The notes under the pieces: generated by a model | What the model was told of the DNA's origin: nothing | The model's database searches: none | The model's input: only the letters and a program-made list of their open reading frames with translations | Assembly (NCBI GenBank): GCA_022826535.1 | Contig: JAJDUS010000122.1 | Coordinates: 1 to 35,397 of the forward strand | Length of the DNA: 35,397 nt | Source: Prochlorococcaceae cyanobacterium jk18x1bzbins.87 | GTDB lineage: Bacteria; Cyanobacteriota; Cyanobacteriia; PCC-6307; Cyanobiaceae | Reading direction: 5' to 3' | Translations under genes and position numbers: made by a program | Part shown: positions 6,558 to 35,397 of the stretch, piece after piece | Layout of the letters: every line of letters starts with the position of its first letter | How positions within the stretch are numbered: the first letter of the stretch is position 1

Positions 6558-6559
6558 GT

Positions 6560-6573
6560 GCCCCCTAAGGGGC
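6560..6573. terminator. Possible bidirectional hairpin between sigma gene and nth
   Basis: GCCCC and GGGGC form a perfect five-pair stem around a CTAA loop, in the gap between two convergent genes. There is no clear T-tract on either side, so termination activity is only suggested by position. Confidence 0.35.
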
Positions 6574-7263: not shown

Positions 7264-8339
7264 GATTTGAGGAGATTGAGTTGGGCGGTGTCGCGGACCA
7301 TTAACACCCCCACCAGTCCCAGTAGCAAGGCCAGTCCCAGGCGGTTCACCGCCAAGGTCCACCGTTCCGGCAACGGCCGCCCCCGCAGACCTTCCCAGAG
7401 CAGCAGCACCATCTGTCCCCCATCCAATGCGGGCAGGGGCAAGGCATTGAGCACAGCCAGGTTGATGGAAATCAATGCCGTGAACAACAGCAGGCTGGCC
7501 CCGCCTTGCTGAGCCAACTGGGCCCCCACCTCCACAATGCGCACAGGTCCCCCCAATTGCTGGGCCGTGGCCTGGAAGTGGGTCAGCAATTGGCCATAAC
7601 CCGCCAGGGTGTTGGCTGTGATGGACCAGAACCCCTGGCTTGCCGTGGCCAGCAATTCCCCCAGCCCACCCACGGGCCGATACTGGCCCATGCCATAGGG
7701 CTGAAGTTGGGCGCCAATGCGGCTGATCCCCTCCTCATCAAGCTGTGGGGTCACCTGACGCTCCTGGGGACCGCCACCCTCCAACTGGAGGGTCAGGGGC
7801 TTGTCGGGGTGGGTCTGCACTGTCGTGATGATGGTTTGCACGGCCCCATTCCCCTCCCCCAGGGGCTGGCCATTGACGGCCACAACATGATCCCCCGGCT
7901 GCAGGCCGGCCAGGGCAGCGGGGGAATGGGGACTGACTCCCGTCACCACAATGCCCTCGGCGGCGCTGATCCCATCGGGTACGCCATAAACGGCCCCCTG
8001 GGCCACCAGCACCACCCAGGCAAACATCAGGTTGGCCAGCACCCCTGCTGCAATCACCAAAGCCCGCTGGGGCAGGGGGCGGTTCCTGAACAGGTCGGGA
8101 TCTTGGGGATGGATCTCTTCTTCGGCATCACTGTCGGGGAAGGCCACATAGCCGCCGATGGGAATGGCCCGCAGGGCAAACTGAATCCCCCGACGCCGCC
8201 AGCCGAGAAGCACCGGCCCCAAGCCAATGGAGAAGCTGCTCACCCGAATTCCCTGCCATGTGGCCGCCAGAAAGTGTCCCGCCTCATGGATGGCAATCAG
8301 AAGCCCGAGCACAGCCAGGGCTGCCAAAATATGAATCAC
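7248..8339 (-). CDS. rseP: RseP-type site-2 intramembrane metalloprotease
   Basis: A membrane zinc protease that cleaves substrates such as anti-sigma factors within the membrane. With the GTG start at 8339 the protein begins VIHILAALAVLGLLIAIHEA, so the HEAGH zinc site sits in the first transmembrane helix as in the family. A PDZ domain follows at about residues 115-200 (LAGLQPGDHVVAVNGQPLG), and the C-terminal LNALPLPALDGGQ carries the third metal ligand in a transmembrane helix. The frame stays open to 8441, but that would run into mqo. The divergent mqo gene starts close by, so the promoters must overlap coding DNA. In marine Synechococcus this gene commonly lies near serS. Confidence 0.93.
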   Translation of the reverse strand: MIHILAALAVLGLLIAIHEAGHFLAATWQGIRVSSFSIGLGPVLLGWRRRGIQFALRAIPIGGYVAFPDSDAEEEIHPQDPDLFRNRPLPQRALVIAAGVLANLMFAWVVLVAQGAVYGVPDGISAAEGIVVTGVSPHSPAALAGLQPGDHVVAVNGQPLGEGNGAVQTIITTVQTHPDKPLTLQLEGGGPQERQVTPQLDEEGISRIGAQLQPYGMGQYRPVGGLGELLATASQGFWSITANTLAGYGQLLTHFQATAQQLGGPVRIVEVGAQLAQQGGASLLLFTALISINLAVLNALPLPALDGGQMVLLLWEGLRGRPLPERWTLAVNRLGLALLLGLVGVLMVRDTAQLNLLKSWLIS

Positions 8340-8385
8340 GGTGGCAACAGCATGATTGCGCCATTCTGCCCTTTGGGAAGGACTT

Positions 8386-9870
8386 GTGGAGCGAATCCAG
8401 GCGGATGCCGTCTTGGTGGGAGCAGGGGTGATGGGCGCCACCCTGGCGACGCTGCTTCAACAACTGGAGCCAGGGCTCACAGTGTTGATTCTGGAACGGC
8501 TGGAGCAGGTTGCAGCCGAGAGCAGTGCAGCCCTCAACAATGCCGGCACGGGCCATGGGGCCAACTGCGAACTCAATTACACCCCCATAGGGGCCCATGG
8601 TGGGCCCAATCTTCACAAAGCCCTGGCCATCAACGGGGCCTATGAGCAGAGCCTGCAATTCTGGGCCGCGCTGGTGGAACAGGGGGTTCTCAGCGGTCCT
8701 GGAACGTTTCTTCACCAGTTGCCCCACTACAGCCTGGTGTGGGGGGAGGAGGAGGTGGCTGCCCTGGCGCAGCGGCAGCAGCACATGGCTGCCCTGCCCC
8801 AATTTGCGGGCATGGCCTTCAGCCGGGATCACCGTGCCCTGTGGGACTGGCTGCCCCTGGTGATGGAGGGCCGCTCCGCTGGGGAGGTCATGGCCGCCAC
8901 CCGCTATGGACGGGGCACGGATGTGGACTTTGGCGCCCTCACCGAGTCCCTGGTACATTGGCTTCAGCGCCAGCCTGGAGTGGAGTTGCGCCTCAACCAC
9001 GCGCTGCACAAACTGCGGCGCAGGGCTGATGGGGGCTGGCGTCTGGATGTGGACCAGGGGGGCAAGAGGGTTCAGGTGGATAGCCCCTTTGTATTTCTTG
9101 GCGCTGGTGGCGGCGCCCTGCTGTTGCTGCAACGGGCCGGGGTGCCAGAGGCGCGGGGCTACGCTGGCTTCCCCGTCAGTGGCCAGTGGCTGATCTGCCA
9201 AACGGCGCCCCTCATTGACCGCCATTGGGGCAAGGTTTATGGCAAGGCCCCAGTGGGTGCGCCCCCCATGTCCATGCCCCATCTGGACAGCCGTTGGATC
9301 AGCGGCCGCCGCGGCCTTTTGTTTGGCCCCTATGCTGGCTTCAGCGGCAAATTTCTGAAGCACGGCTCCTGGCTGGATCTACCAGCCTCCGTGCGCCCCC
9401 ACAATCTGTTGTCCATGGTGGGGGTAGGGTTACGGGAACGTCGCCTGGTTGGCTATCTTCTGCAACAACTGGGGCAAGGCCCCAAGGAACGGCTGGCAAG
9501 CCTGCGCCGCTTTCTCCCCCAGGCACGGCCTGAGGACTGGCGCTTGGCCGTGGCGGGTCAGCGGGTGCAAATCATCAAACAGGAGCCTGGCCGGGGAGCA
9601 CAATTGAAGCTGGGCACGGAGCTGGTGGCAACAGGGGACGGCAGCCTGGCGGCCCTGCTGGGGGCATCGCCAGGTGCGTCAACCGCTGTCACCATCATGG
9701 TGGACCTTTTACGGCGCTGTTTTCCACAACGCTTCCAGAGCGGCCATTGGCCCCAGAGGCTGGCCCAACTGCTGCCCTACGACCCCGCAACGGCAGGCCC
9801 TGATTCCGCCTCTGCCCTGGCCCAGTGCCGCCAGCGTTGTGATACTATTCTGGGTCTGAGGGAGGTGTAA
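8386..9870 (+). CDS. mqo: Malate:quinone oxidoreductase
   Basis: A membrane-associated FAD enzyme that oxidises malate to oxaloacetate and passes electrons to the quinone pool. The N-terminal dinucleotide-binding fold is ADAVLVGAGVMGATLATLLQ. Family blocks include NNAGTGHGANCELNYTP, YGRGTDVDFGALT, FLGAGGGALLLLQ, GYAGFPVSGQWL and GPYAGFSGKFLK. The GTG at 8386 has a GGAAGGA site just upstream and gives the family's short N-terminus (VERIQADAVLVG); TTG at 8356 is a longer alternative. Length is about 494 residues, as usual. The 3' end overlaps the convergent serS by 26 bases. Confidence 0.95.
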   Translation: MERIQADAVLVGAGVMGATLATLLQQLEPGLTVLILERLEQVAAESSAALNNAGTGHGANCELNYTPIGAHGGPNLHKALAINGAYEQSLQFWAALVEQGVLSGPGTFLHQLPHYSLVWGEEEVAALAQRQQHMAALPQFAGMAFSRDHRALWDWLPLVMEGRSAGEVMAATRYGRGTDVDFGALTESLVHWLQRQPGVELRLNHALHKLRRRADGGWRLDVDQGGKRVQVDSPFVFLGAGGGALLLLQRAGVPEARGYAGFPVSGQWLICQTAPLIDRHWGKVYGKAPVGAPPMSMPHLDSRWISGRRGLLFGPYAGFSGKFLKHGSWLDLPASVRPHNLLSMVGVGLRERRLVGYLLQQLGQGPKERLASLRRFLPQARPEDWRLAVAGQRVQIIKQEPGRGAQLKLGTELVATGDGSLAALLGASPGASTAVTIMVDLLRRCFPQRFQSGHWPQRLAQLLPYDPATAGPDSASALAQCRQRCDTILGLREV

Positions 9871-11227
9871 TTACGGTGCAGCCCATGTAGGGCTGTAATG
9901 CCTGGGGAACGGCCACAGAGCCATCAGGCTGCTGGTACCACTCCAACAGGGCCGCCATAGTGCGGCCAATGGCCAGACCGCTGCCATTGAGGGTGTGGAG
10001 GAGGCGATTGCGTTTGCCTTCCTTCATGCGGATGGAGGAGCGGCGCGCCTGGAAGTCCCCACAGGTGCTGCAACTGCTGATTTCCCGATACACCCCTGCT
10101 CCCGCCAGCCACACCTCCAGGTCGTAGGTGCGACAGGCGGAAAACCCCAGATCAGCGGTGCAAAGTTCCACAACCCGGTAGGGCAGCTCCAAGGCCTGAA
10201 GGACTGCCTCCGCATCGGCGGTCAATTGCTCATGGGCCTCCTCGGAGGCATCCGGATGGCAGAACCAATAGAGCTCCACCTTATTGAACTGGTGGAGTCG
10301 AATCAGCCCACGGGTATCTCGGCCATAGCTGCCCGCCTCCCGGCGGAAGCAGGGGCTATAGGCCACATAGCGGCGGGGCAGATCCGTGGCCGGCAAAATT
10401 TCATCCCGATGCAGGGCGGTGAGGGGAACCTCCGCTGTGGGGCTGAGCCAGAGATCGTCATCGGCGCAGCGAAAGCTTTCCTCGGCAAATTTGGGCAGTT
10501 GGCCGGAGCCGGTGAGGCTGGCGGTGTTCACCAACGACGGGGGCAATACTTCCACATAACTCCGGCTGGTGTGCAGGTCCAGCATGAACTGAATCAGGGC
10601 CCGCTCCAGCCGCGCCCCCCAACCCATCAGGGTGATGAAGCGACTCTGGGCAATGCGCACGGAGCGTTCGCTTTCAAATAAGCCCAACGTCCTGGCCAAC
10701 TGCCAGTGCTCCGAGCCTGCCGCGGCGGGCTTGGGATCGCCCCAGCGGCGGCGTTCCACGTTATCGGCTTCATCCCGGCCATCGGGGCAATGGGGGGAGG
10801 GCAGATTGGGAAGCCGCAGCAACTCGTCTCGCAATTTCGACTGGGCATCGCGCTCCTTGGCCTCCAGGGCGGCCACTTCCTCCTTAATTTCGCTGCCCTT
10901 TGTCTCTAAGCTTTTCCCTAGTTGATATAAATCCTCTAAATCCTCTCTCTGCTGCCCCTGAGCTACCGTGATGTTGACGTGAAAACCGGGCGCAGACCCT
11001 AACTCAGGGGAAAGCTTGTTTCCCTTCTCATTGATCTGTCTGAGCACCCCTCCCACTTGCCGGCTAATCCTCTTGCCCTCAGCTTGCAACTGGGCGCGCC
11101 GCTCCGCCAGCTTTTGCACCTGCCGGGCATGATCATGGAGCTCCCCAATATTTACCGCAAGGCCACGACGGCTCAACTGCGCCGCCACATGGTCAGGGTT
11201 TTGGCGAAAAAGGCGTGGGTCAAGCAC
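9845..11227 (-). CDS. serS: Seryl-tRNA synthetase
   Basis: A class II synthetase that charges tRNA-Ser. The N-terminal MLDPRLFRQNPDHV start is encoded by GTG at 11227, followed by the coiled-coil arm and then the catalytic domain. Motif 2 is SPCFRREAGSYGRDTRGLIR with RLHQFNKVE. The Ser-binding region includes SSCSTCGDFQARR. Motif 3 is NGSGLAIGRTMAALLE. At 460 residues it is about 30 longer than most bacterial SerRS. The extra residues fall in the coiled-coil arm (about residues 61-95: LRQINEKGNKLSPELGSAPG and onward), which binds the long variable arm of tRNA-Ser. It is otherwise intact. Confidence 0.96.
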   Translation of the reverse strand: MLDPRLFRQNPDHVAAQLSRRGLAVNIGELHDHARQVQKLAERRAQLQAEGKRISRQVGGVLRQINEKGNKLSPELGSAPGFHVNITVAQGQQREDLEDLYQLGKSLETKGSEIKEEVAALEAKERDAQSKLRDELLRLPNLPSPHCPDGRDEADNVERRRWGDPKPAAAGSEHWQLARTLGLFESERSVRIAQSRFITLMGWGARLERALIQFMLDLHTSRSYVEVLPPSLVNTASLTGSGQLPKFAEESFRCADDDLWLSPTAEVPLTALHRDEILPATDLPRRYVAYSPCFRREAGSYGRDTRGLIRLHQFNKVELYWFCHPDASEEAHEQLTADAEAVLQALELPYRVVELCTADLGFSACRTYDLEVWLAGAGVYREISSCSTCGDFQARRSSIRMKEGKRNRLLHTLNGSGLAIGRTMAALLEWYQQPDGSVAVPQALQPYMGCTVITPPSDPE

Positions 11228-11291
11228 AGCAATGGTCCATTGGCGCTCTAAAGCCTAAGCAAAGCCCGGGGGCCGCTCCCTCTGCCCCGTC

Positions 11292-11537
11292 TCAGAGCAC
11301 CTGCACCACATCACTGATTTCCGGGATCATCTCCCGCAGCTTGCGTTCAATGCCCATCTTCAGGGTCATGGTGCTGCTGGGGCAACTGCCGCAAGCCCCC
11401 TGGAGGCGCACCTTCACGATGGGACCATCCAGTTCCACCACCTCCACGTTGCCCCCATCCGCTAGCAGAAAAGGCCGCACCTCGTCCAAAACTTTTTCCA
11501 CATTGTCCTTGGTGAGGGCCATGGTGTCCATGGTCAT
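11292..11537 (-). CDS. NifU C-terminal-domain Fe-S scaffold protein
   Basis: A small protein of about 81 residues from the ATG at 11537. It carries the NifU-C/NFU signature [18 protein letters not shown], in which the CxxC cysteines hold a transferable [4Fe-4S] cluster, and ends [11 protein letters not shown] as in cyanobacterial homologues. In cyanobacteria this single-domain NFU is the main Fe-S scaffold, supplying photosystem I among other targets. The frame extends to a TTG at 11552, but the ATG gives the usual N-terminus ([20 protein letters not shown]). It lies next to serS and mqo in the same neighbourhood as in marine Synechococcus. Confidence 0.93.
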
Positions 11538-21788: not shown

Positions 21789-21850
21789 TGGGTGGCCATT
21801 GAATCTCCAGGACGGGCTTGCCGAGACGCCCCCTACTATCTTCCTGTCCC

Positions 21851-24004
21851 ATGCCCAACGGATCGACTCTCAACTGGATCACCGGCTATATCTGGAGCAT
21901 TGCTGACGATGTGCTGCGGGATGTCTACGTCCGTGGCAAGTATCGTGACGTGATCCTGCCCATGACGGTGTTGCGCCGTCTGGATGCGGTGCTGGAACCC
22001 ACCAAACAAGACGTGCTGAAGACAAAAGCATTTCTGGACAAGAACGGAATCCACAACCAGGACGTCCCCCTCCAGCAAGCGGCGGGCCAGGCCTTCTATA
22101 ACACCTCCAGGTTCACCCTCCATGCTCTGCGGGCCAGGACCAGCCGCCAGCAACTCAGGGCCGACTTCGAGAACTACCTGGACGGCTTCTCGCCCAATGT
22201 ACAGGACATCCTGGACAACTTCGAGTTCCGTAACCAGCTCACAAAACTCTCCAGAGCAGACGCCCTGGGGGGCCTGATCGAGAAGCTCACCTCCCCGGAC
22301 ATCAATCTGGGCCCGGATCCCGTGGTGGATACCGATGGCACAGTGCGACACCACGGCCTGGATCACCACGGCATGGGCACAGTCTTCGAGGAGTTGATCC
22401 GCCGCTTCAACGAGGAGAACAACGAGGAGGCGGGGGAACACTTCACCCCACGGGATGCCGTGGAGCTCATGGCAAAGCTGGTGTTCCTCCCCATCGCCCA
22501 CCAGCTTGAATCCGCCACCTACCTGCTCTACGACGGCGCCTGCGGAACCGGCGGGATGCTCACCATGGCCGAGGAGGTGTTGCAACAGATCGCCAAGGAG
22601 CAGGGCAAGACCGTATCCACCCATCTCTATGGCCAGGAGATCAACGGCGAGACCTACGCCATCTGCAAAGCCGATCTCCTCCTCAAAGGGGAGGGAAAAG
22701 CCGCCGACAACATCAAGGGCGGCCCGGAATATTCCACCCTGTCCAACGATGGCTTCCCGTCGCAGGAGTTTGATTTCATGCTCTCCAATCCCCCCTATGG
22801 CAAGAGTTGGGAAACCGACCTGCAGCGCATGGGGGGCAAGAAGGAGATGGGGGATCCCCGCTTTGTGATTGAACACGCTGGCGATCCCCAGTACTCCCTG
22901 GTGACCCGCTCCAGCGATGGCCAGATGCTGTTCCTCGCCAACAAACTCTCCAAGATGAAGCAGGGGACCAGGCTGGGAAGCCGCATCGCCCAGGTCCACA
23001 ACGGCAGTTCCCTCTTCACCGGCACGGCGGGGCAGGGGGAGAGCAATATCCGCCGCTGGATCATGGAAAACGACTGGCTGGAAGCGATCATTGCCCTGCC
23101 GCTGAATTTGTTCTACAACACCGGCATCGCCACCTACGTCTGGGTGCTCACCAACCGGAAACCCCCACATCGGTGCGGCAAGGTGCAACTGATCGACGCC
23201 ACCGGGTGGTTCCAGCCCCTGCGCAAGAACCTGGGCCAGAAGAACTGCGAGCTGGGGAAACAAGACATTGAGACAATCTGTCAGACGTTCCTGGATTTCC
23301 AGGAGACGGAGCAGAGCAGGATTTTTGACAACGCGGCCTTCGGGTATTGGAAAGTGACGGTGGAGCGCCCCCTGCGGCTGGCGGTGGTCTGGTGCGAGGC
23401 GCAGCGGGAGCCCTTCTTCAATGCCTGCATCGGGGCCGGTGAGGTCCAATGGGCAGACGCCATGCAAGACATCCTGGACCAACTGGGTGCAGGACCCCAC
23501 CGGGATTTCAATGGGTTCCTGGAGACGGTGAAAACCCGGATGCAACGCCGTGGCATCAAGATGACGGCGAAGCGGAAAACCCTCCTGCAAACCGGACTGG
23601 CCCACCGGGACGAGACGGCCGCGCCGGTGGTGAAGAAAGTGCATCGGCGAGGAGCCCCTGCCAACCCCATCAACGGCCTGTTCGAGGTGGACCATGGGGG
23701 GCACAGGCGGGTGGTGGAGTATGAGCCCGATAGCGAATTGCGGGACACGGAGCAGATCCCATTACAGGAAGAAGGCGGGATTGAAGGCTTCCTGCAACAG
23801 GAAGTGCTTCCCTACACACCGGATGCGTGGTTCCCCCGCCAGGGCGTGAAGATCGGCTATGGGATCAGCTTCAACCGGTACTTCTACAAGCCGGAGCCAA
23901 TGCGCACCCTGGAGGAAATCCGGGCGGACATTCTGACGGTAGAGCGGGAAGCGGAGGGTCTGGTGCGGGACATCGTGGGCGGACAATACACAGCCCGCCA
24001 GTAG
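21851..24004 (+). CDS. hsdM: Type I restriction-modification DNA methyltransferase subunit
   Basis: N6-adenine methyltransferase of 717 residues. An N-terminal helical HsdM domain (1-150) precedes the catalytic core. FEELIRRFNEENNEEAGEHF leads to TPRDAV (179-204), the SAM-binding motif I is DGACGTGG (228-235) and the catalytic motif IV is LSNPPYGKSW (311-320). The long C-terminal part (about 500-717; PYTPDAWFPRQGVKIGYGIS, FNRYFYKPEP) is typical of the larger HsdM subtype. All key residues are present and the frame is intact. The ATG at 21851 gives the usual MPNGSTLNWITG N-terminus; an upstream TTG frame extension is unlikely. Unusually, hsdS and hsdR are not adjacent but 6-7.5 kb downstream. 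Confidence 0.95.
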   Translation: MPNGSTLNWITGYIWSIADDVLRDVYVRGKYRDVILPMTVLRRLDAVLEPTKQDVLKTKAFLDKNGIHNQDVPLQQAAGQAFYNTSRFTLHALRARTSRQQLRADFENYLDGFSPNVQDILDNFEFRNQLTKLSRADALGGLIEKLTSPDINLGPDPVVDTDGTVRHHGLDHHGMGTVFEELIRRFNEENNEEAGEHFTPRDAVELMAKLVFLPIAHQLESATYLLYDGACGTGGMLTMAEEVLQQIAKEQGKTVSTHLYGQEINGETYAICKADLLLKGEGKAADNIKGGPEYSTLSNDGFPSQEFDFMLSNPPYGKSWETDLQRMGGKKEMGDPRFVIEHAGDPQYSLVTRSSDGQMLFLANKLSKMKQGTRLGSRIAQVHNGSSLFTGTAGQGESNIRRWIMENDWLEAIIALPLNLFYNTGIATYVWVLTNRKPPHRCGKVQLIDATGWFQPLRKNLGQKNCELGKQDIETICQTFLDFQETEQSRIFDNAAFGYWKVTVERPLRLAVVWCEAQREPFFNACIGAGEVQWADAMQDILDQLGAGPHRDFNGFLETVKTRMQRRGIKMTAKRKTLLQTGLAHRDETAAPVVKKVHRRGAPANPINGLFEVDHGGHRRVVEYEPDSELRDTEQIPLQEEGGIEGFLQQEVLPYTPDAWFPRQGVKIGYGISFNRYFYKPEPMRTLEEIRADILTVEREAEGLVRDIVGGQYTARQ

Positions 24005-24908: not shown

Positions 24909-25904
24909 ATGGCACGGGCAGACCTGCTCCTGAAACTGGCCAAGGCGAGCACACAGGGGAATGACGAGCAAGTCCGAAGGGTCATCGAAGCCATGGCTGC
25001 AGAGGAGCGCGCCAAAAATCACACCATCCTGGCGGACAGGCTGCTGAGGCATCTGCAGAACGGCAACGGGCGGACACCACAGACGACGCCCCGGACACTG
25101 CGGGCATCAGCAGGCCCCCTGTTGGCGGAGATCATGCCGCAGCGCTGCCTGGAAGATTTGTTCCTGCCGCAGGAGGTGGAGGAGATCATCGGTGAACTCA
25201 TCGCTGAACAGCATCGCGCCGACCTGCTGCGTTCCTACAATCTGGAACCAAGACACCGCATTCTGCTTGCCGGGCCACCCGGCAACGGCAAAACCACCCT
25301 GGCGGAAGCTCTGGCCAACGCCCTGTGCGTCCCCATGCTGGTGGTGCGCTATGAAGCTGTCGTCGGGAGCTACCTGGGGGAGACGGCCCAACGCATTGCC
25401 CGTGTCTTCGAGGAGGCCCGGTCACACCGTTGTGTGCTGTTCTTCGATGAGTTCGACGCAGTGGGCAAGGAGCGGGGAGACCAGCACGAAACGGGGGAGA
25501 TCAAGCGGGTCGTCAGTTCGTTGTTGCTGCAGATCGATGCCCTGCCCAGCTTCGTGGTGGCCGTGACGGCCACCAACCACCCCGAACTTCTGGACCGGGC
25601 CATCTGGCGGCGTTTTCAAGTGTGTGTGGAGTTACCGGCGCCGAGGCGCGGCCAGGTCGAGAAGTGGTTCCGGCGCTTTGCAGAGCAGCACGGCCATGAG
25701 CTAGGCATGTCGCCGCGCAGCCTTGCCCAACGCCTGCAAGGGCTGAGCTTTGCCGAGATTGAGGAATTTGGTCACGATGTTCTGCGCAAGGCAGCCCTGG
25801 ATTCCCCAAACGGTGACGTCAAGGCCATCATTAACAGTCGGCTGCAGCGTTGGAAAGGGCGTTTCAAGCCAGGGGAAGCTGGCCTGGCGGAGGGTAATCC
25901 CTGA
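24909..25904 (+). CDS. AAA+ ATPase (partner of S8-peptidase type)
   Basis: A 331-residue classical AAA ATPase. Walker A is GPPGNGKT (122-129), the pore-loop-like segment is VVGSYLGETAQ, Walker B is VLFFDEFD (176-183), sensor 1 is ATNH (221-224) and the arginine-finger region is AIWRRF (231-236). The N-terminal 100 residues are helical. A strong GGAGG-rich Shine-Dalgarno tract precedes ATG 24909. It is followed within 2 bases by the truncated gene of a subtilisin-like S8 peptidase; such ATPase-peptidase pairs are found in accessory and defence regions, with the ATPase thought to control the peptidase. Since the peptidase is broken, this ATPase appears orphaned though intact. Confidence 0.88.
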   Translation: MARADLLLKLAKASTQGNDEQVRRVIEAMAAEERAKNHTILADRLLRHLQNGNGRTPQTTPRTLRASAGPLLAEIMPQRCLEDLFLPQEVEEIIGELIAEQHRADLLRSYNLEPRHRILLAGPPGNGKTTLAEALANALCVPMLVVRYEAVVGSYLGETAQRIARVFEEARSHRCVLFFDEFDAVGKERGDQHETGEIKRVVSSLLLQIDALPSFVVAVTATNHPELLDRAIWRRFQVCVELPAPRRGQVEKWFRRFAEQHGHELGMSPRSLAQRLQGLSFAEIEEFGHDVLRKAALDSPNGDVKAIINSRLQRWKGRFKPGEAGLAEGNP

Positions 25905-26207
25905 CGATGGTGGAGAGCAACGATCCCCTGCTGGTTTTCCCTGAGCCAGCGCGGGCAGCACGAGCCAAGCGGGTTGGCGGTGGTGGCAAACTTAAGATTC
26001 CCGATGCCGCGAGTCAGGCGAAGCGCTTGGAACCACAGTTCCAACGTCTCCAGGACGCCATGGACAAGCAGCGCATTGCGCTTCAGGATAATCCGCTTGG
26101 CATTGTTCCTGAGCAAGTGCTGGTTCTTAAGATTGTGGGCAGCATCCAGAACTTCATCAATGCGGTTGGCAAAATACCAGGGTTGGAGTGGTTGGGTGAG
26201 TACGAGC

Positions 26208-26326
26208 TTAGGGAAACACTGGAAAACCCCTTTCTGGCTCAGTTCCGGCTTTTTAGAAGCCTTGCTGTGAGAAGGCAATGAGAGTCTTCTATGGAAGCGC
26301 TTTGAGGTTCTCCAGTGTTTCCTCAG
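26208..26326. repeat. Inverted-repeat element core (MITE-like), copy C
   Basis: 119 bases; the left end TTAGGGAAACACTGG pairs with the right end CCAGTGTTTCCTCAG. The interior matches copies A and B, including GGCTTTTTAGAAGCCTTGCT and GAAGCGCTTTGAGGTT. A GAGC direct repeat also brackets this core (26204-26207 and 26327-26330), so the exact insertion unit can be read in two ways; the longer reading is supported by frame restoration. Confidence 0.75.
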
Positions 26327-26520: not shown

Positions 26521-26874
26521 GCGGCGGCGCCCCAGCGCGACCAGACTGCACGACGTGAGGGATGGCCATTGCCATGGCGGCTCCCGCACGATCTCTCCGG
26601 ACGGGATCTAGCCGGTCGGCTCACACTTCACTACGGCTCCTTGATACGAATGGGTGAAAGCCACATGACCATCATGCAGTCACGAAGACCAGCCAACACA
26701 GTATGACCATACCCTCCACCGCAAGCTGCACACCGGAACCATGAACGCCACCGTGAACGAGGTAAATTGGCAACGGGCCACCTTGTCACGGCTTTATGAC
26801 ATTTGCCTGTGAACACGCAAGTGTAGCACCAATATCGGTGTGGCCAAGTTGCTCAATCGGCTAGGTTGCCTGCC
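26521..26874. other. Gene-free stretch after the peptidase remnant
   Basis: No recognisable gene. The peptidase similarity ends at its left side. The right part leads into the HTH-ImmA gene, where a promoter is expected; no clear boxes or Shine-Dalgarno site were found. Confidence 0.4.
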
Positions 26875-28062
26875 ATGGCAACCGTCACTGTCAATCCGGA
26901 TGTTTTGATTTGGGCGCGGAAAACCGCAAACCTGACCCATGCGGAGGCTGCTGCAAAGGTTGGCATCAGGGACACAAAGACAATGGCTGCCGCTGAACGG
27001 CTTGCTGCCCTGGAGCAGGGGGAGGGGGCGCCAACACGGTCCATCCTGGTGAAGATGGCCAAGAGCTACCACCGCCCCCTGCTGACCTTTTACTTGCCAA
27101 CTCCACCACCACCAGGTGAACGGGGTACGGACTTTCGCCAGCCGGTGGGGGCATCGCCTGTGCTGGAGTCCGGGGTGGATGCCCTGGTTCGCGATGTGCG
27201 CAGCCGCCAGAGCATGGTTCGCGCCACCTTGATTGCCGAGGATGAAGCCGCCCCCCTGGAGTTCATTGGGGCATTGGGGAAACGGGCTGATCCGGCAGCC
27301 GCCCACAAGCTTTTGCGGCAACTGCTACCATCAGACCTGAACATCTGTTATTATAATGCGCAGAACCCTGGATCAGCTTTTCGTCTGCTCCGTTCCCATG
27401 TGGAGCAGATGGGCATCTTCGTGGTGCTCAAAGGAAATCTAGGCAGTTGGCACACAAAAATTGAACCTCGGACCTTCCGCGGCTTTGCCATTGCCGACCC
27501 CATTGCCCCTTTTGTGGTGATCAATGAATACGATTCTCAAGCTGCGTGGTCCTTTACGCTCCTGCATGAGCTAATCCATCTACTGCTGGGCCGGACCGGC
27601 ATCAGCGGCAGTGAAACAGAGCACCACCGTGAGGAGAGGTTTTGCAATCGGATTGCTGGCGAATGGCTTTTACCTGGTCAAGCCTTGGAATCTCTCAATT
27701 TTAACCAACGTTCAGACATTTGCAATCAAGTCACCAGTTTTGCAAGGAACCACAATGTTAGTGGAGCAATGGTTGCTTATCGACTTCTGCAAATTGGTCG
27801 CATCAACCAAAACACATACAACAAGCTGCACTCGGTTTTCCTTGAGCTGTGGAAGCAGCATCAGAATGACCGGAAAGAGAAAGAAAAGACTCGGAAAGGT
27901 GGCCCCAATCCCCATAGAATTCGTGCTCACCGCCTTGGCCCTGCCTTGCTCCAGTTCTGTCAACGCATGATGAACGCCGATGCCCTGTCAACCGCTAAGG
28001 TGGGCAGAATCCTGGGCATCCAGCCCAGCCAGGTTGGCAAGTTCTTTCAGTTCCAGGGTTGA
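26875..28062 (+). CDS. HTH-domain ImmA/IrrE-family metallopeptidase
   Basis: 395 residues from ATG 26875. The N-terminus (6-70) is a helix-turn-helix (VLIWARKTANLTHAEAAAKV, LAALEQGEGAPT). The C-terminal half carries the zinc peptidase motif HELIHLLLG (HExxH, 231-235) with a downstream Glu-rich segment (ETEHHREERFCNRIAGEWLL) typical of COG2856/ImmA-IrrE. Such proteins cleave repressors or antitoxin-like partners. The gene is followed 15 bases later by a DUF4411 PIN protein, a pairing known from predicted toxin-antitoxin modules, in which the HTH-peptidase protein would be the antitoxin/regulator. Base composition turns visibly AT-rich from about residue 250. Confidence 0.9.
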   Translation: MATVTVNPDVLIWARKTANLTHAEAAAKVGIRDTKTMAAAERLAALEQGEGAPTRSILVKMAKSYHRPLLTFYLPTPPPPGERGTDFRQPVGASPVLESGVDALVRDVRSRQSMVRATLIAEDEAAPLEFIGALGKRADPAAAHKLLRQLLPSDLNICYYNAQNPGSAFRLLRSHVEQMGIFVVLKGNLGSWHTKIEPRTFRGFAIADPIAPFVVINEYDSQAAWSFTLLHELIHLLLGRTGISGSETEHHREERFCNRIAGEWLLPGQALESLNFNQRSDICNQVTSFARNHNVSGAMVAYRLLQIGRINQNTYNKLHSVFLELWKQHQNDRKEKEKTRKGGPNPHRIRAHRLGPALLQFCQRMMNADALSTAKVGRILGIQPSQVGKFFQFQG

Positions 28063-28077
28063 TGGGGGAGGTGACAG

Positions 28078-28575
28078 TTGCTTTATCTTTTGGATGCTAA
28101 CGTTCTCATCGATGCCCACTATAAGGCCTATCCCATTGATCGGATCCCTGAGTTTTGGGGTTGGCTTGTGAACTGTGGAGAACAACAGCGGGTGAAAGTT
28201 CCCCTTGAGATTTATCAAGAAATTCTCCCTGGGAATCCAGGGAGAGATGTAGAAGATCTACTCTATAATTGGTTGAAAGAATATAAAGCTACAATCTGTC
28301 TTGACGAGGCTGTTGACAATAGTTTATTGCAAAGAGTCATAGAACAGTATGCACCTGATCTTTGCGATGAGGAATTTGAAACTCTTGGCCGTGATCCATT
28401 CCTCATTGCCTATGCACTACACGACACTAAACAACGCACTGTTGTGACCAATGAAGTCTCAAAACCCAAGAAAAAACGTGCGAACCGCCATATTCCTGAT
28501 GTTTGCAAAAATCTCAATATCCGCCACTGCAATACCTGGCAACTCATCAAAGAGCTTGACTTTAGAACACGCTAG
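28078..28575 (+). CDS. DUF4411 PIN-like nuclease, putative toxin
   Basis: 166 residues. The N-terminus YLLDANVLIDAHYKAYP has the first PIN aspartate (D6). Later acidic blocks include GRDPFLIAYALHD and TVVTNEVSKPKKKRAN, matching the DUF4411 pattern. The start is a TTG at 28078, supported by a strong GGGAGGTGA Shine-Dalgarno site just upstream (28065-28073), which leaves no ATG alternative of the right length. The gene is clearly richer in A/T than the core genes, consistent with recent transfer. It is the probable ribonuclease toxin of the module with the preceding HTH-ImmA protein. Confidence 0.88.
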   Translation: MLYLLDANVLIDAHYKAYPIDRIPEFWGWLVNCGEQQRVKVPLEIYQEILPGNPGRDVEDLLYNWLKEYKATICLDEAVDNSLLQRVIEQYAPDLCDEEFETLGRDPFLIAYALHDTKQRTVVTNEVSKPKKKRANRHIPDVCKNLNIRHCNTWQLIKELDFRTR

Positions 28576-28658: not shown

Positions 28659-28979
28659 ATGCACCCCCTCGGCCAAATCCTCAGCACAGGGGGACGTGTG
28701 GTAGGATATGGACCCAATGCTATGCTACGGCACATGGAGCAGATCCCATCGCAAAACAAGGTCAGGGCTGAGGGGTTCCTGCGGCGTAAAGCGCTTCCGT
28801 ACGCGCCAGATGCGTGGCATGGCCTGGAGCCTGTGAAGGACAGCCACGAGTCCAGCTTTAACAGGCACTTCCACAAGCTCCAGCCGATGCAGGTGGTGGG
28901 GAGAGACACGGAGGGGCTATTGGGGAAGATCGTTGACGGACGGCAGCCGTCCATGGCCGTGCGGATGGGGGGTGGCTGA
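28659..28979 (+). pseudogene. HsdM C-terminal fragment, remnant of a second methyltransferase gene
   Basis: In one plus frame the DNA encodes EQIPSQNKVRAEGFLRRKAL and then PYAPDAWHGLEPVKDSHESS, FNRHFHKLQPMQ. This aligns with the C-terminus of the intact HsdM (EQIPLQEEGGIEGFLQQEVL, PYTPDAWFPRQGVKIGYGIS, FNRYFYKPEP). About 20 residues near the end are deleted and the methyltransferase core is absent. An ATG-initiated frame of 106 codons exists by chance. It ends 2 bases before the DUF2806 gene, so an hsdM once stood directly upstream of DUF2806-hsdS-hsdR. Confidence 0.8.
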
Positions 28980-28981
28980 AG

Positions 28982-30028
28982 ATGGCTGACATCACCTTGA
29001 AGGTGCCCGCACTCGATAAGCTCCTTGACTACTTGGCCAGTGGTGTTGGTGCAATCGCAGGACCATTGCTTGCTCCCTGGCGCGCTTCACGGGAAGGCAA
29101 GGCTAGGATAATTACGGCTGAAATGGGTGCCAAAGTTCGGCAGGTTCAGGCGGCCAAGGAAAACAGCACGTCGCAGTTGATCGCAAAAGCACAGAATGAA
29201 GCAAGGGAATATGTATCAACTTCTGATGTTCTAGAGCCTGATGGGGGCATCGAATCCAATATCATACGAAATGCGGTTAAGTTTCAGGCAAAAAAGAGGG
29301 TGATGAACGTTCGGGCGATTGCAGGCCACGCCGCTGAAGAATTGAAAGACAAGGAAGTCCTCGATCATGATCCAGACCCAGATTGGATCGCTCGTTTCTT
29401 TGATGGTGCTCAGGATGTATCGTCTGAAGAACTGCAGAAATTATGGGGAAAAATTCTTGCAGGAGAGATCAAATCACCTGGGCAGACCTCGCTACGTACT
29501 CTTTCTATTCTTAGAAATATGACGCAGCAGGAGGCTAAAAATTTCTCGGCCCTGATGCGTTTCCGGATCTCTGGCCTTATTTTTGACGAGGGCTTACGGA
29601 TGATGTTGGGTGACCATTCTGATTTAATGAGTCAGATGGTCCATTTTTCACATATCGGTCTTCTCGGTGGACATGGAGAATCTGAGAACATAACACTACG
29701 ACGTGATGGAAAATTTATACTTGAGCACCACGACCACGCTTTAATGATTGAAGGGTTGCCAGGCCAGCAGATCTGGAGGGATATGGTTCATAAAATCTCC
29801 ATTTTAACTCGTGCAGGTCTAGAGCTTGCAAAATTGTGTCAACATGAACTAGATCTCTTATACATATCCCACTTCTCAGAATTCTTGGTAAAACAGAATT
29901 GCAAACTTAAAATATATACAATTGCAGACCAGGACTATAAAAATTCTCAACCCTACGGGAAAGATATTGTTGAACCATTCGTTGATCCTGAAGAGCGGAA
30001 CCAACAGGAGCCCGACAATGCCGAATAG
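28982..30028 (+). CDS. DUF2806-domain protein in the restriction operon
   Basis: 348 residues. The start MADITLKVPALDKLLDYLAS and the following Gly/Ala-rich helix (GVGAIAGPLLAPW) plus a long charged helix resemble the DUF2806 family. A central block (DWIARFFDGAQDVSSEELQK, LWGKILAGE) resembles the part shared by such proteins and Abi-like families. Function is not established. The gene is AT-rich compared with hsdM and hsdR. Its last 11 bases overlap the hsdS start, so it is translated together with the specificity subunit and may modify or depend on the restriction system. Confidence 0.8.
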   Translation: MADITLKVPALDKLLDYLASGVGAIAGPLLAPWRASREGKARIITAEMGAKVRQVQAAKENSTSQLIAKAQNEAREYVSTSDVLEPDGGIESNIIRNAVKFQAKKRVMNVRAIAGHAAEELKDKEVLDHDPDPDWIARFFDGAQDVSSEELQKLWGKILAGEIKSPGQTSLRTLSILRNMTQQEAKNFSALMRFRISGLIFDEGLRMMLGDHSDLMSQMVHFSHIGLLGGHGESENITLRRDGKFILEHHDHALMIEGLPGQQIWRDMVHKISILTRAGLELAKLCQHELDLLYISHFSEFLVKQNCKLKIYTIADQDYKNSQPYGKDIVEPFVDPEERNQQEPDNAE

Positions 30029-31532
30029 CGAGGAATCCCGCCAAAGGAGCCACAAGGCCACCTTGCAACAGGTCGCTGCCAAATCGTGGACTGGCAAACC
30101 CTATCCCGCCTACAAGGATTCCGGCGTGGAGTGGCTGGGGAAGATGCCGGCGCATTGGGACTTGCAGCGCATGGCGACAGTTGCCGACATTTGGTTCAGC
30201 AACGTTGATAAACACACCAAGGAGGGGGAACATCCAGTTCGGTTGTGCAACTACATTGATGTGTACCACAACGAGCGAATCACTGTTGATATTCCGTTTA
30301 TGGCTGGAACAGCCAAGAGTAAAGAGATACAGAAATTCCGGCTAGCAGTGGGAGACGTGCTGGTCACCAAGGATTCCGAGAACTGGAAAGACATTGGGGT
30401 GCCGGCCCTCGTGGACTATGCTGCAGACGATCTTATCTGTGGATACCACTTGGCAATGCTCAGGCCCAAGAGGGAATCCCTTGATGGTGGATACCTTACC
30501 TATGCGCTGAAGGACTCACATGTAGCATGGCAATGCCAGGTGGCAGCAGTAGGCGTGACACGATATGGTTTGTCACAGAATGCGATCAAGTCTATGAGAA
30601 TCCCCCTCCCTCCTCTCTCCGAGCAACGCGCCATCGCCCACTTCCTGGACGACGCCAACGAACGCATCCAACGCTACATCCACGCCAAGGAAAAACTAAT
30701 CAAACTCCTGGAAGAGCAAAAACGAGTCATCATCCACCAGGCCGTCACAGGCCAGATTGATGTTAGAACTGGCCAGCCCTATCCGGCCTATAAGGATTCG
30801 GGAGTGGAGTGGCTGGGGAGAGTGCCCGCGCATTGGGAGGTTGGCACGGTGAAGCGGGGATATGACATCAAGCTTGGAAAAATGCTTCAGACGAAACCAA
30901 ACGATGCCAATGATATTGAAGTACCATATCTGAAGGCTAAGGACGTGCAATGGTTCAGTGTTCAGCCGATAAGTGGGACAAGGATGTGGGCAAGCCCAGG
31001 AGATATTGAGCAGTTCAGCGTTTCCGGTGGAGACCTGTTGGTGTGTGAAGGGGGAGAAGGTGGGCGCTGTGGAATACTGACAGGTTCAGTCAGTGGTCAT
31101 ATTATTCAAAACTCGCTACACAGAGTGCGATCACATTATGGAAATAGCAATACTTTTCTGCAATACACTATGCGTGCAATTGCGGAGACTGGTTGGTTTG
31201 TAGCCATCAACAACAAGGCCACCATTGCGCATTTCACATACGAGAAATTTGGTGCGCTCCGTGTCCCATTTCCAAGCTCTTCCGAGCAACACGCCATCGC
31301 CCGCTTCCTCACTGACACCTGTCAACGCATTTCAGCAGCCTGCGCTGCGGTGAAACGCGAAATTGAATTGCTCCACGAATACCGCACCCGTCTCATTGCC
31401 GATGTGGTCACCGGCAAGCTGGATGTGCGTGAAGCGGCGGCGGCGCTTCCTGAGGAAAATCCGCCCACCGGTGGGGACAACTGCCAGGATGGGATGGCGT
31501 TTGCCGTCCAGGTTCAAAGCCGCTGCCCATGA
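30018..31532 (+). CDS. hsdS: Type I restriction-modification specificity subunit
   Basis: 504 residues from ATG 30018, which lies within the end of the DUF2806 gene. It shows two target-recognition halves, each opening with the same module: GKPYPAYKDSGVEWLGKMPA (residues 26-45) and GQPYPAYKDSGVEWLGRVPA (about 251-270). Each half ends with a conserved helix region (PLPPLSEQRAIAHFLDDANE and SSSEQHAIARFLTDT), as expected of HsdS. The first half recognises one half-site of the DNA target and the second the other. The stop codon overlaps the hsdR start (ATGA). The subunit appears intact. Confidence 0.93.
   Translation: MPNSEESRQRSHKATLQQVAAKSWTGKPYPAYKDSGVEWLGKMPAHWDLQRMATVADIWFSNVDKHTKEGEHPVRLCNYIDVYHNERITVDIPFMAGTAKSKEIQKFRLAVGDVLVTKDSENWKDIGVPALVDYAADDLICGYHLAMLRPKRESLDGGYLTYALKDSHVAWQCQVAAVGVTRYGLSQNAIKSMRIPLPPLSEQRAIAHFLDDANERIQRYIHAKEKLIKLLEEQKRVIIHQAVTGQIDVRTGQPYPAYKDSGVEWLGRVPAHWEVGTVKRGYDIKLGKMLQTKPNDANDIEVPYLKAKDVQWFSVQPISGTRMWASPGDIEQFSVSGGDLLVCEGGEGGRCGILTGSVSGHIIQNSLHRVRSHYGNSNTFLQYTMRAIAETGWFVAINNKATIAHFTYEKFGALRVPFPSSSEQHAIARFLTDTCQRISAACAAVKREIELLHEYRTRLIADVVTGKLDVREAAAALPEENPPTGGDNCQDGMAFAVQVQSRCP
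30098..30160 (+). repeat. hsdS internal direct repeat, copy 1
   Basis: About 60 bases (CCCTATCCCGCCTACAAGG...) repeated at 30774-30836 with scattered third-position changes. They encode the YPAYKDSGVEWLG module that opens each recognition half. Such repeats allow exchange of recognition domains. Confidence 0.8.
30774..30836 (+). repeat. hsdS internal direct repeat, copy 2
   Basis: Partner of 30098-30160, in the same orientation within hsdS, separated by one full recognition domain. Confidence 0.8.
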
Positions 31533-33052
31533 CCACCGACACCACTGAACGGGGCTTGGAACGCCTCATTTGCCAGGCCCTCACCGGCGACCCGTGCGAT
31601 CCCCCCGCTAGCGGCACCATCGGCGAGCCGGCCTGCACCGATGGGGGCAGCGGCTGGTCCCCCGGCAACCACCACGATTACAACCGCGAACATTGCCTTG
31701 ACCTGGTCCAGCTCCGCAGTTTTCTCCACACCACCCAGCCCGAAGCCGCCCCCGCCCTCCGGCTGGATGAGGACTGCCCAACGCGCCACAAGTTTCTGGC
31801 CCGCCTCCAAGGGGAGGTGGCCAAGCGGGGCGTCATTGAAGTGTTGCGCCACGGCATCAAGCACGGTTCCCACCATCTCCAGCTTTTTTGCGGCACCCCC
31901 TCCCCCCGGAACCAGACGGCCCAGCGGCGGTTTCGTCAGAATCGGTTCACCGTCACCCGTCAACTGCGCTACAGCCTGGACGAAGGCCGGCGCGCCCTGG
32001 ATCTGGTGTTGTTCATCAATGGGTTGCCTGTTTTCACGTTCGAGTTGAAGAACAGGCTCACCAGGCAGACGTTTGAAGACGCCATTGCGCAATACAGAAG
32101 GGACCGTAACCCGCGGGAGTCCCTGTTCCAGTTCGGGCGTTGTGTGGCCCATTTCGCTGTTGATGAAAACCAGGTTTATTTCTGCACCCATCTCCGGGGC
32201 GAAGTATCCCGGTTTTTGCCGTTCAACCGGGGTTGGAACGGGGGCAGCGGCAACCCGCCCAACCCGGACGGCCTCAAGACGGACTACCTTTGGCATGATG
32301 TGCTCTGCCGGCAGAGCGTGGCCGCCATCCTGGAGAGCTACGCCCAGGTGGCGCCGTCCAGAACCGGCAACGCGGGCCAGGGCAGGTCCGTCCAGATCTG
32401 GCCCCGGTATCACCAGTTGGACGTGGTGCGCCGACTCCTGGCGGACGCCCGACAACACGGGGCGGGGAGGCGGTATCTGATCCAGCACTCGGCCGGCAGC
32501 GGCAAGAGCTATTCCATCGCCTGGCTGGCCCATCAGCTCATTCCCCTGGAGCAGGACGACAAGCTGATTTTTGATTCCGTCATTGTGGTGACGGATCGCC
32601 GCATCCTGGATCAGCAGATCCGCGACACCATCCGGCAATACGCCCAGGTGCGGGCCACGGTGGCACATGCGGAAGGGGCGGGGGATTTGCGCCGGTTCAT
32701 TGCCCAGGGCAAGAAGATCATCATCTCCACCATCCAGAAGTTCCCTTTCATCCTTGAGGAGATCGACAACCGGCAGCGGGGTCGCCGCTTCGCCATCATC
32801 ATCGACGAGGCCCATTCCAGCCAGGGGGGCAGCGCCAGCGCGGCCATGGCCCAGGCGTTGGGGGAGACGGAGGAGGAGACCGGCGAGGACCGGATCAATC
32901 GCTTGATGGCCTCCCGCAGGCTGCTGCCCAACGCCAGCTACTACGCTTTCACCGCCACCCCCAAGAACAGGACCCTGGAAATTTTCGGGAACCCGGAGCC
33001 CCAGGGGGACGGCGCACGGTACGCCATCGGCCGTTCCATGTCTACAGCATGA
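31529..33052 (+). pseudogene. hsdR: Type I restriction endonuclease HsdR, N-terminal part (frameshifted)
   Basis: The 5' part of hsdR, 507 codons. The nuclease domain carries the D...ExK motif (D158, E172, K174 in LDLVLFINGLPVFTFELKN). The motor domain begins with Walker A SAGSGKSY (321-328), then IIDEAHSSQGG (DEAH, 426-429) and YAFTATPKN (TATP). The frame is lost near 33021-33030: the continuing residues should read RPFHVYSMKQAIQEGFIL but are in another frame, and translation stops at 33050-33052. A single base missing in this region would explain it. The start overlaps the hsdS stop (ATGA). Confidence 0.88.
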
Positions 33053-34518
33053 AGCAGGCCATCCAGGAGGGGTTCATTCTGGATGTGCTCAAACACTACA
33101 CCCCCATCACCAGCTACTACAGACTGGCCAAGACCGTGGCGGACGACCCGGAATTTGACGCCAGGAAGGCCCAAAAGAAGCTGCGGCGCTATGTGGAAGG
33201 GCATCAGCACGCCATCCGGCATAAGGCGGAGATCATGGTGGACCATTTCCATGAACAGGTGATCGCCCACCGCAAAATTGACGGCAAGGCCCGGGCCATG
33301 GTGGTCACCAACGGTGTTGAGCGGGCGATCCAGTATTTCCACGCCATTCGCAGTTGCTTGAAGGAGCGCAAAAGCCCCTACCAGGCCATCGTCGCTTTCT
33401 CGGGGGAGCACAACGACGGCGGCAGGCCAGTGAACGAGGCCACCCTCAACGGGTTCCCATCCGCCAGGATCGCCGACAACATCCAACGGGATCCTTACCG
33501 TTTCCTCATTTGCGCCGACAAGTTCCAGACCGGCTACGACGAACCCCTTCTCCACACCATGTATGTGGATAAACCCCTGGCGGGGGTCAAGGCGGTCCAG
33601 ACCCTCTCCCGCCTCAACCGGGCCCACCCCGGCAAGCGTGATGTCTTCGTGCTGGACTTCCGGAACGACACGGAGACCATCAAGCAGGCGTTCTCCCCCT
33701 ACTACCGCGCCACCATCCTCTCCGACGAGACCGACCCCAACAGGCTCCACGACCTCCAAAGCCACCTGGACAAGGCCCAGGTGTATTCCCCCACCGACGT
33801 GGAGGCGTTCGTGGAGCACTACCTGAACGGCATGGGGCGGGAACAACTGGACCCGATTCTGGAGCAGTGCGTGGCGATCTACAGGAGCGACCTGGACGAG
33901 GACGGGCAGGCGGCATTCAAAGGCAAGGCCAAGGGCTTTGTGCGCACCTATGCTTTCCTCTCCTTGATCCTCCCCTACACCAACCGGGACTGGGAAGAGC
34001 GGTCGATTTTCCTGCATTTCCTGATCCCGAAACTGCCGGCCCCCGTGGAGGAGGACTTATCCAAAGGCATTCTTGACGCCATCGACATGGAAAGCTACCG
34101 GGCCGAAAAGCAAGCCCTGCGGGCCATCCTCCTGGAGGATGAAGACGGGGAAATTGACCCCGTACCCGACGAGGGCAACGGCAAACAGGGGGAGGCCCAG
34201 CCGGATCTGCTCTCCAGGATCATCGCAGATTTCAATCACCTGTTCGGTGGAATCCCGTGGGCAGATGAGGATCGGGTCCTGAAGATGATTACGGTGGAGA
34301 TTCCAGCCAAGCTGCTGGAAGATTTGGCGTTCAGCAATGCAAAAAAGAACTCGGATCCCGAAAATGCCCGTATTGAGCACGACGCAGCGCTTCAGCGGGT
34401 CATGGTGGACATCATGAAAGACAATACCCAGTTCTTCAAACACTTCATGGACAACCCGGACTTCAAACGATTCGTCAGCAACTCCAGCTTTGATGTGGCC
34501 TATAGGGGGAAGGGTTGA
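33049..34518 (+). pseudogene. hsdR: HsdR C-terminal part (after frameshift)
   Basis: An open frame of 489 codons that continues HsdR: FHVYSMKQAIQEGFILDVLK, then the second helicase lobe with ADKFQTGYDEPLLHTMYVDK and motif VI QTLSRLNRAHPGK. The C-terminal helical part ends near 34518. An ATG at 33049 falls within the natural sequence of the protein, so a separate product could in theory be made, but it would have neither nuclease nor Walker A. The two parts together have the length of a normal HsdR (about 1,000 residues). Confidence 0.88.
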
Positions 34519-34874: not shown

Positions 34875-35397
34875 ATGACGGATTCTACCATTGCCTTGTT
34901 CTGCTGTCTCGATGATTGTGCCAGGCTGGTTGAGGACTGGGAGCCTCACCACTTGATCCCCTCTAATCGCCAGCGCCGACGAGCTGCCAAGCTCTCCCTC
35001 GGCGAGATGCTGTCCATCATGGTGCTGTTTCACATCTCAGCTTATAAGGCTTTCAAGCCTTTCCGGCTCTACGGCCTCTCACAAGAGTATGGGGGCTGCT
35101 GCGGAGAACTCCCCAGCTATAGCCGGTTTGTGAGCCTGAAGCCTCGACTGCTGCTGCCGTTTTACCGGTTTACCTGCTGTTGCATGATTTCCGTGGGGAG
35201 AAGACCGGCATCTACTTTGCCGACAGTACCAAGCTGGCGGTCTGCCACAATGCACGCATCAGCCGGAACAGGGTTTTCCAAGGGATGGCCAAGCGTGGTC
35301 CTACCACCATGGGCTGGTTCTTTGGCTTCAAGCTCCATCTGCTCATCAATCACAAGGGCCGGATCATGGCCTTCAGGATGACGGATGGAAGCAGAGA
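34875..35397 (+). pseudogene. IS982-family transposase, frameshifted and cut by the window edge
   Basis: ATG 34875 opens a transposase: FCCLDDCARLVEDWEPHHLI, KLSLGEMLSIMVLFHISAYK and then [19 protein letters not shown], the N-terminal pattern of IS982-type enzymes. Near 35165-35175 one base seems missing. The original frame drifts, while a second frame continues [40 protein letters not shown], and [19 protein letters not shown], including the catalytic Asp in ADST. A -1 or +1 shift would be needed to read through. The 3' part of the gene lies outside the window. A fragment of the same family is present at 2868-3092. Confidence 0.85.

Follow-up and report, generated by a model that had tools for sequence, protein, structure and literature searches.

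The DUF2806 gene in the window (the whole stretch of 35,397 nucleotides of a Prochlorococcaceae cyanobacterium contig that was analysed) is probably an Abi-alpha-like exclusion gene that sits in a type I restriction operon as an exchangeable cassette, in the way that PrrC and DarTG2 are carried in other hsd loci. We hold this reading with somewhat better than even confidence. It is based on the DUF2806 assignment of the protein and its weak relation to Abi_alpha, on the position of the gene in the operon, on its recurrence beside hsdS in separate lineages, and on its replacement by a SIR2-HerA pair in a sister genome.

Features of the type I restriction locus in the window, with the matches on which each assignment rests.
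Feature	Position	Strand	Evidence
hsdM, type I methyltransferase subunit	21818..24004	+	N6_Mtase E=2.7e-50, HsdM_N; PADLOC MTase_I E=7e-244
ietA, AAA ATPase of IetAS defence system	24909..25904	+	PADLOC IetA E=3.6e-144
ietS stub, 124 aa, IetS N-terminus only	25907..26281	+	PADLOC IetS E=5.3e-29, profile 3-102 of 855
HTH + ImmA/IrrE-type peptidase protein	26866..28062	+	Peptidase_M78 E=6.1e-13; PADLOC RmrA E=7.2e-15
DUF4411 protein	28078..28575	+	PF14367 E=8.6e-32
hsdM 3'-end relic	28668..28898	+	45% identity to HsdM 621-698, E=7.2e-15
DUF2806 gene, 348 aa	28982..30028	+	PF10987 E=2.2e-33
AGGAG, ribosome-binding-like site for hsdS	30006..30010	+	sequence; 7 nt ahead of ATG
DUF2806 3' end / hsdS 5' end overlap, 11 nt	30018..30028	+	sequence
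hsdS, type I specificity subunit, 504 aa	30018..31532	+	Methylase_S E=2.8e-21
hsdR 5' part, frame closes early (frameshift)	31529..33052	+	HSDR_N, SWI2_SNF2
hsdR 3' part, different frame	33049..34518	+	T1R_D3-like

The product of the open reading frame at 28982-30028 passes the gathering cut-off of PF10987 as a whole protein (116.4 bits against 24.5), the match covering profile positions 7-102 of 221 only. The end of hsdM lies about 5 kb upstream, and the named genes between it and DUF2806 are all on the same strand. At 24909-26281 IetA is almost full length and is followed by just the stub of IetS, so the IetAS system of the window looks broken. The HTH-ImmA/IrrE-type protein and the DUF4411 protein that follows it (26866-28575) may form a toxin-antitoxin-like pair. 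The hsdM relic is contained in an open reading frame (28659-28979) which ends 2 nt ahead of the ATG of DUF2806. Downstream, hsdR is split near 33,013; it is a single open frame of 999 aa in locus L051 and of 1006 aa in L170, both from the genus of the window. A possible IS982-type transposase fragment (34875-35381; weak match, E=0.0019) is located 3' of hsdR. Scans for promoters and terminators gave no signal above shuffle level.

In a Pfam scan, the only other family matched by the window protein was Abi_alpha (PF14337, E=4.5e-4), at 20.7 bits against a gathering cut-off of 29. When 49 diverse DUF2806 proteins were compared, six matched Abi_alpha at E<=0.01, the best at 9.2e-7. TIGR03899 also matches the window protein (E=9.7e-29), but the score of 100.7 is below the NCBIfam cut-off of 155.65, and no PADLOC-DB model matched DUF2806 at E<=0.01. 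Abi-alpha of Enterococcus faecalis prophage 6 is described as an abortive-infection protein, shown experimentally, that acts through early lysis, and the same paper itself notes a similarity to PF10987 (PMC6356687). DUF2806 thus appears to be a distant relative of Abi-alpha which may work like it, without being filed as a member of Abi_alpha.

The AlphaFold2 model of the protein has a mean pLDDT of 78.6; residues 92-310 are mostly good, while 39-56 and much of 317-348 are poor. The predicted layout consists of N-terminal helices, a conserved helical core at about 92-165, a possible winged-helix domain at about 169-257 and a variable C-terminus. The order of elements in the 169-290 region is winged-helix-like, and the best VIA-align match was a MarR chain (Z 6.1, rmsd 2.9, 74 residues), a weak level which may reflect only a common arrangement. 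Foldseek returned no PDB match at E<=0.001, and BFVD returned one unnamed viral protein (E=1.5e-11). The sequence search of solved structures gave just two V-ATPase G-subunit coiled-coil matches (E about 0.7) and did not recover PDB 3H35, the entry named in the Abi-alpha paper (PMC6356687). Identity between the window protein and that of L051 is 73, 83, 63 and 50% in residues 1-90, 91-165, 166-260 and 261-348. A conserved core followed by a fast-changing C-terminal half would fit an effector with a diversifying sensor. A transmembrane N-terminus was considered and rejected: over the first 50 start positions, the 19-residue Kyte-Doolittle mean of the window protein reaches at most 1.31, below 1.6, and only 1 of 49 proteins reaches 1.6. 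Because of these low values, an amphipathic helix is the more likely form of the N-terminus.

The initial annotation placed the ATG of hsdS 8 bases before the stop codon of DUF2806, and this holds exactly: the ATG is at 30018-30020 and the TAG, in a different frame, at 30026-30028. An identical 11-nt overlap is found in L051 and L170 and also in L127, a remote locus of the same phylum. Since the overlap recurs in these three loci, its origin by chance was ruled out. In L143 the order is reversed, hsdS preceding DUF2806, with a 10-nt overlap if the start is GTG, and in L122 DUF2806 starts 4 nt downstream of hsdS. The DUF2806-hsdS pair is therefore tight in several lineages. Given the other tight junctions in the window, namely the 4-nt overlap of hsdS and hsdR (31529-31532) and the 2-nt gap between IetA and the IetS stub, the overlap is nothing special to this pair. 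The AGGAG 7 nt ahead of the hsdS ATG is also present in L051 and L170. As hsdS has its own such site, translational coupling to DUF2806 is not required, and the two proteins need not be made in the fixed proportion that had been suggested.

The gene content between hsdM and hsdS varies within the genus. Ten genomes were searched; DUF2806 is present in three of them (window, L051 and L170), and an hsdM of matching type, at 68-93% identity and in some genomes only in pieces, in the window and six other genomes. Gap contents were compared in the window, L051, L172, L173 and L174, the gap being visible up to hsdS in the window, L051 and L174 only. The window carries IetA, the IetS stub, the ImmA-type protein, DUF4411 and DUF2806. 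L051 carries a 171-aa ORF and DUF2806. In L174, IetA, a 171-aa ORF, SIR2 and HerA are present (SIR2-HerA at 7544-11376), HerA ends less than 100 nt before hsdS, and DUF2806 is absent. Both 171-aa ORFs have a HEPN-like look by eye, but they drew no Pfam match and are not assigned to HEPN. In L172 a CBASS cyclase and a phospholipase (264-2110) follow hsdM, and the contig stops before any hsdS; in L173 the region beyond hsdM holds a fragment of hsdR among other genes. Different defence genes thus occupy the hsd slot of related genomes, as is the case for an embedded cassette of the DarTG2 type.

The hsdM-tail relic precedes DUF2806 by 2 nt in both the window and L051, with the same 10-residue alignment gap in both. 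In L174 the SIR2-matching part is preceded by an 81-nt stretch resembling the relic (75%, E=5e-10); blastn with the window relic found it, and tblastn with HsdM did not bring it up. We infer an older, compact hsdM-cassette-hsdS-hsdR operon to which later cassettes were added at the hsdM end. In the alignment of HsdS proteins, an N-terminal extension of about 24 aa (30018-30090 in the window) is found in all three loci of the genus that carry DUF2806 and is missing from L174. The first target recognition domain (TRD1) of HsdS in L051 and L170 is 92-93% identical to that of L174, which is free of DUF2806, and because of this shared domain a link between DUF2806 and DNA specificity was rejected. 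As judged from these sequences, the cassette changes without change in the first specificity domain.

The genes of the locus also decay separately. In the window hsdR is broken and DUF2806 is intact; in L170 hsdS and hsdR are open and DUF2806 lies in two frames at the contig start; in L051 hsdM has one in-frame stop. Any of these frame breaks may be an assembly error, L051 being a metagenome assembly. Intact restriction-modification genes and intact DUF2806 do not co-occur consistently in the genus, a pattern which speaks against an obligate partnership. It also bears on a different reading, in which DUF2806 is a guard comparable to PrrC, which HsdM-HsdS binds and silences until a phage anti-restriction protein puts the enzyme out of action and so frees or activates the guard. 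Such a guard would account for the presence of DUF2806 on either side of hsdS in the window, L051, L170, L127, L143 and L122, and for an HsdS extension seen with DUF2806 and missing where SIR2-HerA takes its place, and PrrC, as described, is a precedent. Against it stand the uncoupled decay, the sharing of TRD1 between loci with and without DUF2806, and the 62 of 68 DUF2806-bearing genomes in which DUF2806 is not beside Methylase_S. We regard the guard as unlikely.

A quick tree was built with 83 DUF2806 proteins, with SH-aLRT as its only support measure; exact duplicates and four rows below 60 bits were left out, and of 24 close Pseudomonadota copies 6 were kept. The window and L051 share one branch (100) within a nine-row clade (99), which also holds L106/L122, L053/L143, L052, L040, L050, L004 and L005. 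Four of the five hsdS-adjacent rows of the tree belong to this clade; they come from Cyanobacteria, Acidobacteriota and Chloroflexota, and whether DUF2806 lies upstream of hsdS or downstream varies among them. The remaining row, L007/L127, sits on a very long branch outside the clade. Clustering of restriction-modification labels was not shown on the whole tree (4 changes; 42 of 500 shuffles needed no more). In L052, DUF2806 ends 17 nt before the likely start of a 1004-aa ORF with weak N6-methyltransferase matches; a distant HsdS-like gene on the other strand of this locus was picked up by PADLOC only. A search with a few Hsd reference proteins was negative in L040, L050, L004 and L005, and no Methylase_S lies near DUF2806 in L004 and L005. 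The A5 profile search for more clade members gave 6 of 245 and 2 of 147 genomes; the closer new members L187, L188 and L189, the last cut by the contig end, are not beside Methylase_S. In L187, DUF2806 is near a Dam-like gene.

Other gene arrangements were seen around the hsdS-adjacent copies. In L122 (2707-4690) and L143 (8164-10094), HsdS has an N-terminal nucleotidyltransferase domain and is preceded by an NTase_sub_bind gene, which we take to be HEPN-type. The arrangement resembles a toxin-antitoxin pair of which one member has been joined to the specificity subunit. In L122 a Fic gene (6295-7428) also separates DUF2806 from hsdR, and L127 has a 199-aa protein without Pfam match between hsdS and hsdM (9894-10493). 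Outside the clade, on the Paraburkholderia plasmid L009 (8001-10473), an Mrr_cat restriction endonuclease gene begins 130 nt after DUF2806. A narrower form of the guard proposal can be framed for the DUF2806 subfamily of Cyanobacteria, Acidobacteriota and Chloroflexota. The subfamily would be a dedicated guard of DNA-recognition subunits that docks on HsdS. In this genus the docking would use the N-terminal extension; in the two relatives where HsdS carries a fused nucleotidyltransferase domain, it would take place beside the HEPN/nucleotidyltransferase-type pair. Blocked restriction would then trigger abortive infection. We consider this proposal quite unlikely.

The frequency with which DUF2806 meets hsdS was surveyed with the PF10987 model in 386 genomes of the window's phylum and in 398, 199, 201 and 249 genomes of the phyla of L055, L053, L052 and L061 (Pseudomonadota, Acidobacteriota, Chloroflexota and Bacillota, as judged from the seed records). 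Matches were obtained in 8, 36, 3, 4 and 2 genomes respectively, in total 53 of 1433 genomes with 54 loci. DUF2806 adjoins hsdS in four of the 54 loci (G000, G222, G388, G1125), and in two of 49 (G222, G1125) when the five seed genomes are left out; adjacency could escape notice in loci near contig edges (G1173, G293, G494, G410). Conversely, by hand tally, 2 of the 54 hsdS genes in 48 DUF2806-bearing genomes adjoin DUF2806. From the same tally 0.095 hsdS-adjacent loci would be expected against the two observed among 49 (P(>=2)=0.004), under a null of random placement which ignores the clustering of defence genes. Among 68 DUF2806-bearing genomes, Methylase_S occurs somewhere in 40 and beside DUF2806 in six: G000, L051, L170, G222 (L127), G388 (L143) and G1125 (L122). 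The regular presence beside hsdS expected of an obligate type I subunit was thus not found in these 68 genomes. DUF2806 lies mostly away from hsdS, yet beside it more often than random placement predicts. In the Pseudomonadota sample, 26 of 37 loci match PF10987 at E<=1e-53 and seem to form a conserved group on the chromosome, which counts against the cassette reading.

A role for DUF2806 as a general partner of restriction was ruled out, as far as hsdS is concerned, by this five-phylum survey. The initial annotation had proposed a part in the restriction complex, to be abandoned if DUF2806 proved to be found mostly away from restriction genes. Across the whole family, with the window's own clade excepted, this is the distribution seen with respect to hsdS, and neither the two-way counts of adjacency nor the uncoupled decay support the proposal. 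Its other suggestion, an added abortive-type defence, gains indirect support from the Abi-alpha kinship and from the known defence genes in the gaps of sister genomes; we regard the abortive-defence reading as plausible.

DUF2806 is carried by mobile DNA, in favour of the cassette reading: the window protein is matched by 309 of 72,556 plasmid records, and one DUF2806 motif occurs at 38 viral-contig loci. The 1 match among 50,697 records of an annotated phage collection speaks against that reading. On the IncX4 plasmid L012, DUF2806 (5830-6681) is near a MipZ-type gene and no restriction-modification gene is listed nearby. DUF2806 might instead be a hitchhiker, that is, a plasmid or phage housekeeping gene without defence role, inserted by chance in an often-rearranged island. 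This IncX4 record and the many copies without hsd neighbours are in keeping with such an origin; its recurrence at restriction-modification genes inside one clade, the excess of hsdS-adjacent loci over random placement and the defence genes that otherwise occupy the gap make it rather improbable. Least probable is that DUF2806 is an accessory subunit or regulator of the enzyme, acting in assembly, specificity or restriction control: the adjacency and tight overlap with hsdS and the possible winged-helix domain would suit it, but few surveyed DUF2806 loci adjoin hsdS, L174 has the same hsd type without DUF2806, and the position upstream or downstream of hsdS varies.

The preferred reading, an Abi-alpha-like exclusion gene in an exchangeable slot, can be compared with known systems. 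Abi-alpha (EF2833 of Enterococcus faecalis prophage 6; DUF4393 in PMC6356687 and Abi_alpha in Pfam) is, as described there, a single exclusion protein on mobile DNA, like DUF2806, to which it has distant sequence kinship. The window protein differs in being longer (348 against 272 residues), in lying in a type I operon and not a prophage, and in its match below the Pfam cut-off. PrrC, an ABC-ATPase anticodon nuclease held by the restriction enzyme, is described from the EcoprrI type IC operon (PMC3874165, PMC2610378). Like PrrC, DUF2806 is an extra gene inside a type I hsd operon; the output of PrrC is suicidal, as that of DUF2806 may be, and neither an ABC-ATPase nor an anticodon-nuclease domain was found in DUF2806 by the Pfam scan. 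DarTG2 is described as a defence cassette inside a type I locus of E. coli, the RptR island (PMC12255303). There the site is between hsdS and hsdR and the insert a toxin-antitoxin pair, whereas in the window the site is between hsdM and hsdS and DUF2806 is found instead. By analogy, DUF2806 in the window is of the same kind as these hsd-embedded defence genes, with another cassette at another junction. From the profile cut-offs DUF2806 is a member of neither Abi_alpha nor TIGR03899, and from its domain content it is not PrrC.

In the mechanism we propose, DUF2806 would be read through with hsdS and hsdR and would therefore be expressed with the restriction enzyme. It could then serve as a second line, with abortive activity, against phages that escape or disable restriction. 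The N-terminal amphipathic and coiled helix may be a membrane or self-assembly part, and the conserved helical core, between this helix and the C-terminal half, may be another working part. The fast-changing C-terminal half would be the part that meets a phage product.

Because the SIR2-HerA pair holds the same place in the sister genome L174, an overlap between the stop of a neighbouring gene and the start of hsdS says little about whether that neighbour belongs to the enzyme. The DUF2806 family now stands near a family with experimentally demonstrated abortive infection, and in a slot of a type I operon whose contents appear to be exchanged; this placement makes a direct phage test worthwhile.
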